64,000 nucleotides of DNA from Nitrospirota bacterium. GTDB taxonomy: Bacteria > Nitrospirota > Thermodesulfovibrionia > Thermodesulfovibrionales > UBA6898. The position numbers were made by a program, and so were the translations under genes. Positions 17,384-47,004 of this stretch are shown here, piece after piece. The DNA lies in contig JAJXTV010000002.1 in assembly GCA_021783515.1 (NCBI GenBank), positions 62,001 to 126,000 on the forward strand, read 5' to 3'. The notes beneath the pieces were generated by a model. The model had not been told where the DNA came from and searched no databases. It was given only the letters and a program-made list of their open reading frames with translations. Within the stretch, counting starts at the first letter, position 1, and every line of letters starts with the position of its first letter.

Positions 17384-17426
17384 CGGGCGTTAATGGGCAG
17401 ATGGCGCCTGGGTTTACCCTAACGGT

Positions 17427-17506
17427 GCATACCGGCGGGGAGAGCGCTCCTCACATCCTTTCTGATGCGATAGGATTTGGCAGAGCATGGAATAAAGGAC
17501 TTCACG
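17427..17506 (+). repeat. intergenic conserved element copy A
   Basis: gcataccggcggggagagcgctcctcacatcctttctgatgcgataggatttggcagagcatgg...ggacttcac; closely similar to copy B, core shared with copy C. Confidence 0.75.
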
Positions 17507-17542
17507 AAAAGGTAAGTCGGCGATATTTATGCAGCTGGGGGT

Positions 17543-18499
17543 TTATTTATTCAGTCTCTGCCGGGCATATTCCGCGGCGCCCCATAGTCCGCTGTTTTCG
17601 TCTTTGATGAGATAAACGGGAATCTTTTCGATCAGCGCCGCCAGAGTGTCGGAGGCACGGAACTCCGCAGCGAAAGCCTTGTGAAAAACCAGCTCGGGGC
17701 TTTTCGCCGCCACTCCGCCGGCGATATGAAGGCCGCCGCGCGCAAGGACCTGCAGGGCATAATTTCGGCACGCCCTCCCATAAAATCTCGCCGCCCATTC
17801 GAGCGTCTCGGGACACCGGTAGAATTTCTCCGCCACCTCCGGAGGGGTGAGCTCTTCCCCGGTAAGGAACTGATGGAGATGACTGAGCCCTCCTCCCGAG
17901 ACGACGGTATTTCCGGTGATATAGTGCTCTCCGCGCTCTTTCATGAGAAATTCCTGATATTCGCATTCCCGCTTCGAGACGAAGGCAAAGTTGGAATGGC
18001 CCGCCTCCGAGGGCAGTGCGGTAAATCCCCCTTTCCCGTCGGGCATGAGGGCGCAGTGTCCGAGCCCCGTGCCCGCTCCGATTACCGCCCGCGCCGCTTC
18101 CGCCACGGCCTCTCCGGGAAGGACCTTGTCGGCCGATTTCCCCGCCTCGGATATGCAGGCGAAGGCCTGCGCGACGAAATCGTTGATCAGAGCGGCGTTC
18201 CTGAAGCCGAAATCACTCTCCGCCCGCGAAAGATCGATATCCCAGGATATGAGCGGCGGGGAGCTTTTCAGCCCGTGCTCGACCGGACCGGCGATGGCGA
18301 TCGCCACGATGTCGGCGTCTTCCGGCCTGAGCGACATCTTCTCCTCCCGAAGATTGTCTACCAGTTGTCCGAACGACGCGGCCTCAGCCGTCTTCAGCCA
18401 CTTGATCCCGCAGAGGGAAAGCCCTCCCTTTTCGTCCTCGACGAAATGCGCGAACCTGCTGTGCGTCCCTCCGATGTCGGCTGCGAGGATATTCTTCAT
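17543..18499 (-). CDS. glk: glucokinase
   Basis: LAADIGGTHSRFA, GAGTGLGHCAL, LPSEAGHSNFAF, GGVAAKSPEL. Confidence 0.93.
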   Translation of the reverse strand: MKNILAADIGGTHSRFAHFVEDEKGGLSLCGIKWLKTAEAASFGQLVDNLREEKMSLRPEDADIVAIAIAGPVEHGLKSSPPLISWDIDLSRAESDFGFRNAALINDFVAQAFACISEAGKSADKVLPGEAVAEAARAVIGAGTGLGHCALMPDGKGGFTALPSEAGHSNFAFVSKRECEYQEFLMKERGEHYITGNTVVSGGGLSHLHQFLTGEELTPPEVAEKFYRCPETLEWAARFYGRACRNYALQVLARGGLHIAGGVAAKSPELVFHKAFAAEFRASDTLAALIEKIPVYLIKDENSGLWGAAEYARQRLNK

Positions 18500-18615
18500 G
18501 CTTAATCATACCTCGGAAAAGCGGTCGTGCGAAACCTACTCCCGGGCCGATAACGTTATGCTACCTCAACGCATCGGAAGCTACGTCGGCACTCCCGAGG
18601 GGGACACGACACTCA

Positions 18616-18703
18616 GTGAAGCCCTCTCATCCTGACGCCATGCTGCGTCAAATCTTATCGCATCAGGAAGGATGTGAGGGGGGACTCTCCCCGCCGGCAT
18701 GCA
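18616..18703 (-). repeat. intergenic conserved element copy B
   Basis: Reverse strand tgcatgccggcggggagagtcccccctcacatccttcctgatgcgataagatttgacgcagcatgg...gggcttcac; begins a few nt after the ribD stop. Confidence 0.75.
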
Positions 18704-18708
18704 ACGAT

Positions 18709-26436: not shown

Positions 26437-26686
26437 GACTTAACCCTATCATTGCGTGCCGGAGGAAGAGCGACCTTTAAATCCTTTGATCTCCTCTGCG
26501 GTACGCCTGCAGGGAAACTCAGGCAGGGAATGAATAGTGTCAGCCGCTCTCCGGAGAGCTCGCTGTTCATTTAAGGAAGCGCGGCAAACGTTTTTCGGGC
26601 TGGTGTTCCCGCCTCTGCGGCGATATCTATGCCGCTGGAGCGCAGGGAGAGAAGAGCAGTTCGGCCGCAATAACAAGGAGCGCGAC

Positions 26687-44661: not shown

Positions 44662-45729
44662 ATGACGAGTTCATCCCCTTTTTGCGTGGTAGGTATCTGC
44701 GGCTATTCCGGCTCGGGAAAGACGACCCTTATAGAAGAAATAGTGTCCGAACTGAGGGCGGGCGGGTTCAGGGTAGGGGTCCTGAAGCATACGCCCCATT
44801 CCCTCTCTCTCGACGCCGAGGGCAAGGACACGGAGCGGTTTTATCGCGCCGGCGCGGATTACGTCTTCGCCCATGATGCCCATCAGGCGTTTGCGCGCTA
44901 TCCTGACAGCGCAGGCCGGCTGCAGGATTTCCTCTCCCGATTTCCCAGCTCCCTGGATCTCGTGCTGGTCGAGGGGCATAAAAAGGCCGGGCTTCCCGGG
45001 ATATGGATCACGGCGGGGACCGGCGAAGACCGGAAGCGCCCGGAACAGTCTCAGAAGAAGGTTGTTTCACGGGACGACCCCCGGTATTTCGGGGCGGTGA
45101 TGGAGCATATCCATCAGGAGCTTGCGAAATGCCATTCCGGGCGGCGGGTCATGGCCGGACTGCTGATCGGCGGAAAGAGCATGAGGATGGGTACGGACAA
45201 GGCCCTGCTCAGGATCGGTGGAGAGCTCTTTGCCGAACGGTCCTACCGGACGCTCGGAGAGGTGGCGGCGAAGACGGTCTTGCTCGGCTCGGCCGAGCTG
45301 CCCGGTCCGCTCGGCAGGGCCGACCGTCTCCCGGACGTCTCCGGGGTGCGGGGCCCGATGGCCGGTATTCTCGGCGCCTTCAGGTGGGGGCCCGAGAGCG
45401 CCTGGATAATGTCGGCGGTGGACATGCCGTTTATGGACAAGGAGGCGTGGGAATGGGTTCTCGGCCACAGGAGACCAGGGGTTTGGGCAGTGCTTCCTCT
45501 TTTGAAGAGAGGCGCGAAGGCCGAGACGATGGCCGCCTGCTATGAACCCAACATCTTCGGAGCTGTGGAATCGCTTGCGAAGGCGGGGATCAGCACGCTC
45601 CAGGAACTGACGCACCACCCTAAAGTGATCACGCCGCTTGTTCCGAAATCGCTTGCCCGCGCCTGGAAGAACGTCAATACGATCGCCGAGTGGAAGCGGG
45701 CCAACCGCCTGCTCGATAAAAGACCGTAA
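44662..45729 (+). CDS. MobB-MobA fusion (molybdopterin-guanine dinucleotide biosynthesis)
   Basis: MobB: VVGICGYSGSGKTTLIEEIVSELRAGGFRVGVLKHTPH; MobA: GLLIGGKSMRMGTDKALLRIGGELFAERSYRTL. Confidence 0.92.
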   Translation: MTSSSPFCVVGICGYSGSGKTTLIEEIVSELRAGGFRVGVLKHTPHSLSLDAEGKDTERFYRAGADYVFAHDAHQAFARYPDSAGRLQDFLSRFPSSLDLVLVEGHKKAGLPGIWITAGTGEDRKRPEQSQKKVVSRDDPRYFGAVMEHIHQELAKCHSGRRVMAGLLIGGKSMRMGTDKALLRIGGELFAERSYRTLGEVAAKTVLLGSAELPGPLGRADRLPDVSGVRGPMAGILGAFRWGPESAWIMSAVDMPFMDKEAWEWVLGHRRPGVWAVLPLLKRGAKAETMAACYEPNIFGAVESLAKAGISTLQELTHHPKVITPLVPKSLARAWKNVNTIAEWKRANRLLDKRP

Positions 45730-45733
45730 CACG

Positions 45734-45782
45734 TCACACCGGCGGGGAGAGCCTCCCTCAATCCCTTTTGATGCGATAGAAT
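45734..45782 (+). repeat. intergenic conserved element copy C (core only)
   Basis: cacaccggcggggagagcctccctcaatcccttttgatgcgatagaatg; begins 5 nt after the mobBA stop. Confidence 0.65.
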
Positions 45783-45900
45783 GCGGCGAAGGCCTGGCGT
45801 TCGCGAAGAGCGGAATCGGCCGGCTTTTCATCCGGGGCGTTGTATGGTAGATTGTGAGATATGATCATCCCGTCCGGGAGGAAAAACAGGGGAGGCTTTT

Positions 45901-47004
45901 ATGTGCGATTCACAGAATGAGGGGCGGTCGGCAGAAAGAAGGATGATCCCGGTGGCCGAGGCGGTCGGTACTGTCCTCGCCCATGACATTACCGAGATCA
46001 GGAAGGACGAGTTCAAGGGACGCGCCTTCAAGAAGGGGCATGTGGTAAAGGAGGAAGACGTCTGCCGTCTCCAGAGGCTCGGGAAAGAGCACCTCTTCGT
46101 GCTGAGCATCGGCCCGGACGAGATGCATGAGGACGATGCCGCCCGCTCGCTCGCTGCGGCGCTCATGGGGGATGGGGTCGCCGTAAAGGGAGGGCCTAAA
46201 GAGGGGAAGATCACCCTTGTGGCGGACCGCGACGGGCTGCTCAGGATCAACCGCGAGTCGCTCCTGAATTTCAATATGACCGGAGAGGTGATGTGCGCCA
46301 CGCTCCATGACAACACGCTCGTCAAGAAAGGGCAGGTCGTCGCCGGGACGCGCGCGATCCCGCTCGTCGTGAAGAAGAGCGCGGTCGGCGCGGCGGTGGA
46401 TGCGGCCGCCCGGGGCGAGAAGACCATTCGTGTAAGGGAGCTCAGGCGGCCGAGGGCCGGGATCGTGATCACCGGCAACGAGGTTTATTATGGAAAGATA
46501 AAGGACGCCTTCGCCCCGGTCATCACCGGGAAGATCAAGGCGTTCGGGGGAGATGTCGTGGGGCTGTACTACGCCCCGGACGAAGAATCTTTTATCGGAA
46601 GCAGGCTGCGGGAACTGATCGGGGCGGGCGCCGATCTCCTCATCACGACGGGTGGGATGTCGGTCGACCCCGACGACGTGACGAGGTTTGCGATACGGAA
46701 ACTGGGTGCGGAAGAGGTGACCTACGGCTCGGCGGTGCTTCCGGGAGCGATGTTCCTGGTTGCCTATATAAGAGCGGCAGAGCGGAAGGCGGAAAGCGCA
46801 GAAGGGGAAACCTCCGGAGAGATCCCCATCCTCGGCATTCCCGCCTGCGGAATGTATGCGAATGCGACGGTCTTCGACCTCGTCCTGCCGCGGATACTTG
46901 CCGGCGAGAAGATAGGCAGATACGAGCTTGCGGAACTCGGCCACGGAGGGCTCTGCATGAAATGCGGGACCTGCCGGTATCCGGTCTGCCCGTTCGGGAA
47001 GTAG
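45901..47004 (+). CDS. MoeA-like molybdopterin-binding protein with C-terminal Cys cluster
   Basis: VAEAVGTVLAHDITEI; RAGIVITGNEVYYGKIKDAFAPVI; ADLLITTGGMSVDPDDVT; C-term GGLCMKCGTCRYPVCPFGK. Confidence 0.88.
   Translation: MCDSQNEGRSAERRMIPVAEAVGTVLAHDITEIRKDEFKGRAFKKGHVVKEEDVCRLQRLGKEHLFVLSIGPDEMHEDDAARSLAAALMGDGVAVKGGPKEGKITLVADRDGLLRINRESLLNFNMTGEVMCATLHDNTLVKKGQVVAGTRAIPLVVKKSAVGAAVDAAARGEKTIRVRELRRPRAGIVITGNEVYYGKIKDAFAPVITGKIKAFGGDVVGLYYAPDEESFIGSRLRELIGAGADLLITTGGMSVDPDDVTRFAIRKLGAEEVTYGSAVLPGAMFLVAYIRAAERKAESAEGETSGEIPILGIPACGMYANATVFDLVLPRILAGEKIGRYELAELGHGGLCMKCGTCRYPVCPFGK

Follow-up and report, generated by a model that had tools for sequence, protein, structure and literature searches.

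Between the mobBA fusion gene and a moeA-like molybdopterin gene lies a short sequence that recurs elsewhere in the same stretch of DNA, and the question raised by this locus is what that sequence is, whether it folds, and why it sits at the end of a gene. The original prediction described an element of 49 nt at positions 45734-45782 of the window (by which is meant the entire 64-kb stretch that was analyzed), occurring in three copies, A, B, and C. The quoted sequence is present, and its core is common to copy A at 17.4 kb and copy B at 18.7 kb on the minus strand. Alignment of the flanks revealed, however, that the 49 nt belong to a ~215-nt interspersed unit, of which they make up the left part only, and that copy C is a decayed version of that left part. 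All three copies are real, but a search with a covariance model, referred to as R1, demonstrated that the window holds four, copy D having been missed. The unit is described below as a miniature inverted-repeat transposable element (MITE) with long-range helices P1-P4 in its interior. The relevant features are as follows.

17413..17416, + strand: target duplication TTTA, left of copy A
17417..17541, + strand: copy A, an internally deleted MITE with both ends (R1 E=3.5e-4)
17542..17545, + strand: target duplication TTTA, right of copy A
18535..18708, - strand: copy B, a MITE with the left part complete and the right part decayed (R1 match 18687-18535, 57.2 bits, E=6e-13)
26444..~26643, + strand: copy D, the fourth copy (R1 match 26458-26618, E=0.0054)
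44662..45729, + strand: mobBA fusion gene, upstream of copy C (open reading frame; orthologues 76-78% identical in congeners)
45727..45729, + strand: TAA stop of mobBA, inside the left end repeat of copy C (from the open reading frame; C-terminus unlike those of congeners)
~45724..45840, + strand: copy C, a decayed IS1380-type MITE (alignment with genome copies; R1 match 45738-45838, 14.6 bits, E=0.023)
~45724-45737, + strand: left end repeat of copy C
~45738-45777, + strand: left arms of P1-P3 of copy C
to ~45840, + strand: degenerate right part of copy C
45769..45778, + strand: TGATGCGATA, with the left arm of helix P3 (GCGAT, 45773-45777)
45901..47004, + strand: moeA-like molybdopterin gene, downstream of copy C (named from reading the sequence)

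Copy B lies directly 3' of the stop codon of a ribD-like gene. Copy D is immediately preceded by TTAA (26440-26443), and both of its ends are recognizable, reading TTAA followed by CCCTATCATTGCG on one side and ATATCTATGCCGCTGGAGCG on the other; a cache/sensor-like gene starts downstream of it at ~26687. With no more than two mismatches allowed, TGATGCGATAGAATG occurs twice in the window versus 0.08 expected occurrences.

Copy C had been placed 5 nt after the mobBA stop. Its homology to the end repeat instead begins at ~45724, upstream of that stop, with 8 of 14 positions matching, and the TAA thus falls inside the element. The empty-site comparison, which covered copy C and three congeners, showed that in G001, G002, and G004 mobBA and the beginning of the moeA-like gene are retained without the element. 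The MobBA proteins of these congeners terminate in ...EEKSGAPSD or close variants, and that of the source genome in ...DKRP. On the basis of the empty site and the altered C-terminus, the insertion of copy C seems to have changed the last residues of MobBA and to have supplied its present stop codon.

Repeat family, transposon ends, and proposed parent type

Searches of the source genome with the ~215-nt consensus and with a 79-nt piece of the repeat each returned at least 40 strong matches, and R1 yielded 49 matches with E≤4e-10. The congeners G001 and G002, by comparison, contain 2 or 0 copies. The element is short and multicopy, with no open reading frame of note and no transposase gene. 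Many copies in the source genome have worn ends and no clear duplications. Three loci (L254, L262, and L264) measure only ~45-50 nt, their two end repeats almost abutting, and look like internal deletions in which the whole hairpin between the GGCG repeats is gone. The right flank of L184 carries a second element-like sequence directly after its R1 copy, and tandem element pairs are found in G001 as well (C135, 432 nt apart).

The best copies begin with CCCTATCGTTGCAT and end with ATGCAACTGGAGAG, which form a terminal inverted repeat, and the ends CCCTAACGTTGCAT...ATGCAACTGNAAGG match those of a complete IS1380-family insertion sequence in a relative. That element, L302 of genome G096, is 1,887 bp long, is bordered by TTAA at either side, and has between these ends an open reading frame of 441 amino acids, a 400-residue part of which scores 313 bits against NF033539 (cut-off 180, E=2e-93) and matches PF13701 with E=5e-58. 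Judged from these sequence features, L302 is a complete IS1380-family insertion sequence, and it is proposed as the parent type of the MITEs. The tetranucleotides just outside the ends are identical in 5 of 32 pairs (from 30 copies of the source genome and 2 of G001) versus 0.84 in shuffles (p=0.0005); examples of such 4-bp target duplications are TTGA, TTTA, TTAA, and ATAA. In G042 and G076, the R1 module lies between these same ends, and five of nine elements have exact duplications (TAAA, TTAA, TAGA, or TTCA). The right-end motif is present in 32 of 121 genomes of the order.

Because the ends and the TTAA-like duplications match a complete IS1380 element, the repeats are read as IS1380-type MITEs. 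From the repeat family, its ends and duplications, the matching insertion sequence, and the empty site, we have little doubt that the ~215-nt unit is a MITE and copy C a decayed member of the family. IS1380 has served as the prokaryotic outgroup for piggyBac, whose hallmarks are TTAA duplication and CCCT-type ends (PMC10813416). The present element resembles members of the IS1380 family, prokaryotic relatives of piggyBac, in its CC...GG ends and TTAA-type 4-bp duplications, and differs from them in lacking a transposase and in carrying an unrelated structured interior. Integron attC sites and HUH-type elements of the IS200/IS605 kind were also considered and set aside, since terminal inverted repeats and 4-bp duplications do not fit those systems.

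An IS1380-family transposase would recognize the CCCTAACGTTGCAT.../...ATGCAACTGNAAGG ends and mobilize the non-autonomous element in trans, inserting it at TTAA-like tetranucleotides and duplicating the target. How bacterial MITEs are mobilized is still termed hypothetical in a review of the field (PMC2229807). A comparable assignment of a non-autonomous element to an autonomous parent is that of MITEAba12, whose parent is reported to be ISAba12 and whose hosts belong to another family (PMC6382973). An IS1380 transposase gene was sought in the source genome and was not found; its copies are thus likely relics, and present mobility is unlikely.

The same ends also surround other interiors. Elements of G002, mostly 232-239 nt in length, have a different interior and mostly exact duplications (TTAA, TAAA, TTCA, and others). 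Such interiors of ~220-240 nt within IS1380-type ends were observed at L245, L250, L253, L255, and further loci of G001 and at L316-L340 of G002, and by sequence they appear to represent a second MITE family in the congeners. In the source genome, the IS1380-type ends of L252 surround a further, distinct interior that has inverted arms of its own.

The fold of the interior

The interior is a ~175-nt module whose left and right arms pair across the element in four long-range helices. The closing stem, P1, is variable in sequence and is followed by CUCAAA.../...UUUUCGG and by P2 (CCUUUC/GAAAGG); inside these lie P3 (GCGAU/AUCGC), P4 (GCAU/AUGC), and a variable apical part. In an alignment of 28 sequences from the source genome and its relatives, both sides change at 22 of 35 pairs (0 of 500 shuffles), and the proportion of cells paired (82%), the number of double changes (68), and the covariation score each exceed those of all 500 shuffles. 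When the partners are slid as a control, the same 28 sequences pair in just 37-50%. The source genome by itself, represented by 44 copies aligned without reference to structure, gives 50 double-change cells versus 20 (0 of 500). Note that P3 and P4 vary little, and hence the support is chiefly for P1 and P2. The sequence of P1 varies from copy to copy within one genome with its pairing maintained. RNAalifold predicted almost no structure from the raw alignment of the genome's own copies, probably because of divergent flanks and a misaligned P1, and the structure appeared once relatives and anchored columns were included. No Rfam family, including the HEARO-type omega-RNA, matched at gathering scores, and one full copy gave no match at E≤10.

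Distribution of the module and its second kind of ends

R1 detects the module in 44 of 150 genomes of the Thermodesulfovibrionales, belonging to 28 of 74 genera, and several of these genomes have at least 18 matches each. An exact-pattern scan of ~85,000 named genomes identified 36 loci, 35 of which were confirmed by R1; 34 of the 35 are titled Nitrospirae or Thermodesulfovibrionales, and one is titled uncultured bacterium. The contig of an 'Accumulibacter' bin (L238) has no R1 match and was discarded as a chance occurrence of the pattern. Viral contigs gave no match to the element, and a phage origin was rejected on that ground. In the literature searched, no paper dealt with both MITEs and Nitrospirae, or with both interspersed repeats and Thermodesulfovibrio.

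Genomes of family f13 also contain this interior between a second pair of ends, CATAATCCGTAA...TTACGGATTATG, which are unrelated to the IS1380-type ends. These are flanked by direct repeats of ~8 bp (GAACAGGT, AAAAATTG, GGAATGT, GTAATAC) in excess over shuffled pairs (p=0.0015). Both kinds of ends are present in G076 and in G085. Ends of the CATAATCCGTAA type are abundant in f13, with 51 matches in G145, 17 in G114, and 15 in G038, and many of them have no recognized module or partner end. In G071, CATTCTCGCTCCGCTCCGAAGACATAATTGATACCGCA and sequence related to it are common to the flanks of copies L168, L172, L175, and L177 and may represent a third type of end.

The two kinds of ends, together with the absence of the R1 module from the IS1380 elements tested, suggest that module and transposon ends can be separated. 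It is possible, though on balance we think it unlikely, that the conserved fold represents an RNA module in its own right, functional or selfish, which came to be framed by the MITE ends of different transposon families and is kept for an RNA function of its own rather than as passive MITE filling. The shared interior within both sets of ends in G076 and G085, the ~8-bp repeats outside the second set, the tested IS1380 elements without the module, and a P1 that differs among copies yet stays paired all point this way. So does a copy that two species of genus g6 (L129 in G015 and L131 in G024) appear to share at one site, with flanks that are nearly identical, and that looks like a vertically kept one. 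Against it, no transposase or autonomous partner was found for the CATAATCCGTAA ends, the neighboring open reading frames that were read being ordinary-looking host genes, and the tree of interiors by end type, in which some labels derive from a loose pattern, is too poorly resolved to count swaps.

The fold could alternatively exist at the level of DNA only, as subterminal inverted repeats bound by the transposase, whose coevolving ends would imitate RNA covariation. The two arms are indeed nearly inverted repeats of one another, and R1 also gives weak scores on the opposite strand. A fixed protein site would not be expected, however, to vary from copy to copy while remaining paired within each, as P1 does; strand-specific conserved unpaired bases interrupt the helices, and the tested autonomous IS1380 elements are devoid of the arms. 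We regard this explanation as rather improbable.

The original prediction combined structure with a fixed binding motif, namely a protein-binding DNA site centered on TGATGCGATA beside a small local hairpin at GGGGAG, and in this form it is very improbable. The RNA-like structure is real, and TGATGCGATA is identical in copies A, B, and C, but it holds one arm of the long-range helix P3 and is not invariant in relatives, where it changes together with its partner (GCGAT/ATCGC to GCAAT/ATTGC). The local hairpin, said to covary, was rejected: no double change was observed in 44 copies, and the bases in question form P1 with the opposite end of the element. A riboswitch-like or terminator RNA acting in cis on molybdenum-cofactor genes, suggested only by the location of copy C between mobBA and the moeA-like gene, is refuted by the same gene pair without the element in congeners and by dozens of copies beside unrelated genes, and it finds no match in Rfam.

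Position behind genes and possible effect on mRNA

The sense position behind stop codons that had been noted for the copies in the window holds in the source genome, where a same-strand gene, as called by a simple codon-usage finder rather than a trained annotator, lies immediately upstream of 40 of 53 copies (p=0.0003). In tandem contexts of that genome, 27 copies are sense and 5 antisense (p=0.0001). Eleven of the 40 sense copies begin within 3 nt of a stop codon, and in four cases the end repeat contains the stop. The covariance model, genome search, and table of positions that had been suggested thus uphold both the structure and the sense/stop-codon bias. The sense bias is weaker elsewhere, with 9 of 21 in f13 genomes. 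In G002, 7 of 15 elements that have the IS1380-type ends but lack the module are sense, and their contrast with module-bearing ones is borderline (p=0.055), this control consisting of module-less elements only, as sorted by R1, with the module-bearing elements of G042 and G076 excluded.

The module-less elements likewise sit at stop codons. Proximity to stop codons arises in part because TTAA-like duplications (TAAA, ATAA, TTGA) often overlap them; indeed, in a GC-rich genome most TTAA-like sites should fall at stop codons or between genes, which would bring copies to gene ends. The remainder of the bias may reflect selection on the sense RNA. Transcription running on from the upstream gene would append the element to the 3' end of the mRNA, where it would fold into a strong hairpin. 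In line with proposals for ERIC and NEMIS, this hairpin could protect the mRNA 3' end or be a place at which the transcript is processed or terminated; sense copies would thereby be tolerated or kept more often. That the element RNA stabilizes, processes, or terminates mRNAs is conceivable, and we lean slightly against it.

Among known systems, the ERIC/IRU and NEMIS/Correia elements are bacterial MITEs that are likewise small and intergenic, with end repeats and long-hairpin transcripts (PMC2229807), and action on neighboring mRNAs has been proposed for ERIC and NEMIS (PMC2229807, PMC1590033). They differ in their TA-type termini, in their enterobacterial and neisserial hosts, and probably in sequence. 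The distribution of the present element, in this one order, and its different ends speak against membership in these families; the likeness is one of anatomy, and a shared effect on mRNA would follow only by analogy. The CIR elements of Caulobacter and Brucella are likewise short repeats found between genes, and their RNA folds show phylogenetic conservation (PMC2229807). They comprise two separate stem-loops with GANTC motifs and no assigned transposon ends, whereas the element described here has one closing stem with P2-P4 nested within it. Taken in full, the reading that this is an undescribed structured RNA module of the Thermodesulfovibrionales, carried as MITE cargo between the ends of at least two transposon families, its fold kept by compensatory change and its RNA acting on mRNAs at the 3' ends where it lands, is a tentative one that we would not expect to hold in every part.

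The analysis defines a MITE family for one order of the Nitrospirota and names the transposon family of its proposed parent. A covarying internal fold that is kept while the surrounding transposon ends differ is hard to square with the view that MITE hairpins arise solely because the ends are inverted. If the RNA does act on mRNA 3' ends, a transposon would have placed one and the same regulatory structure after dozens of genes within a single lineage.
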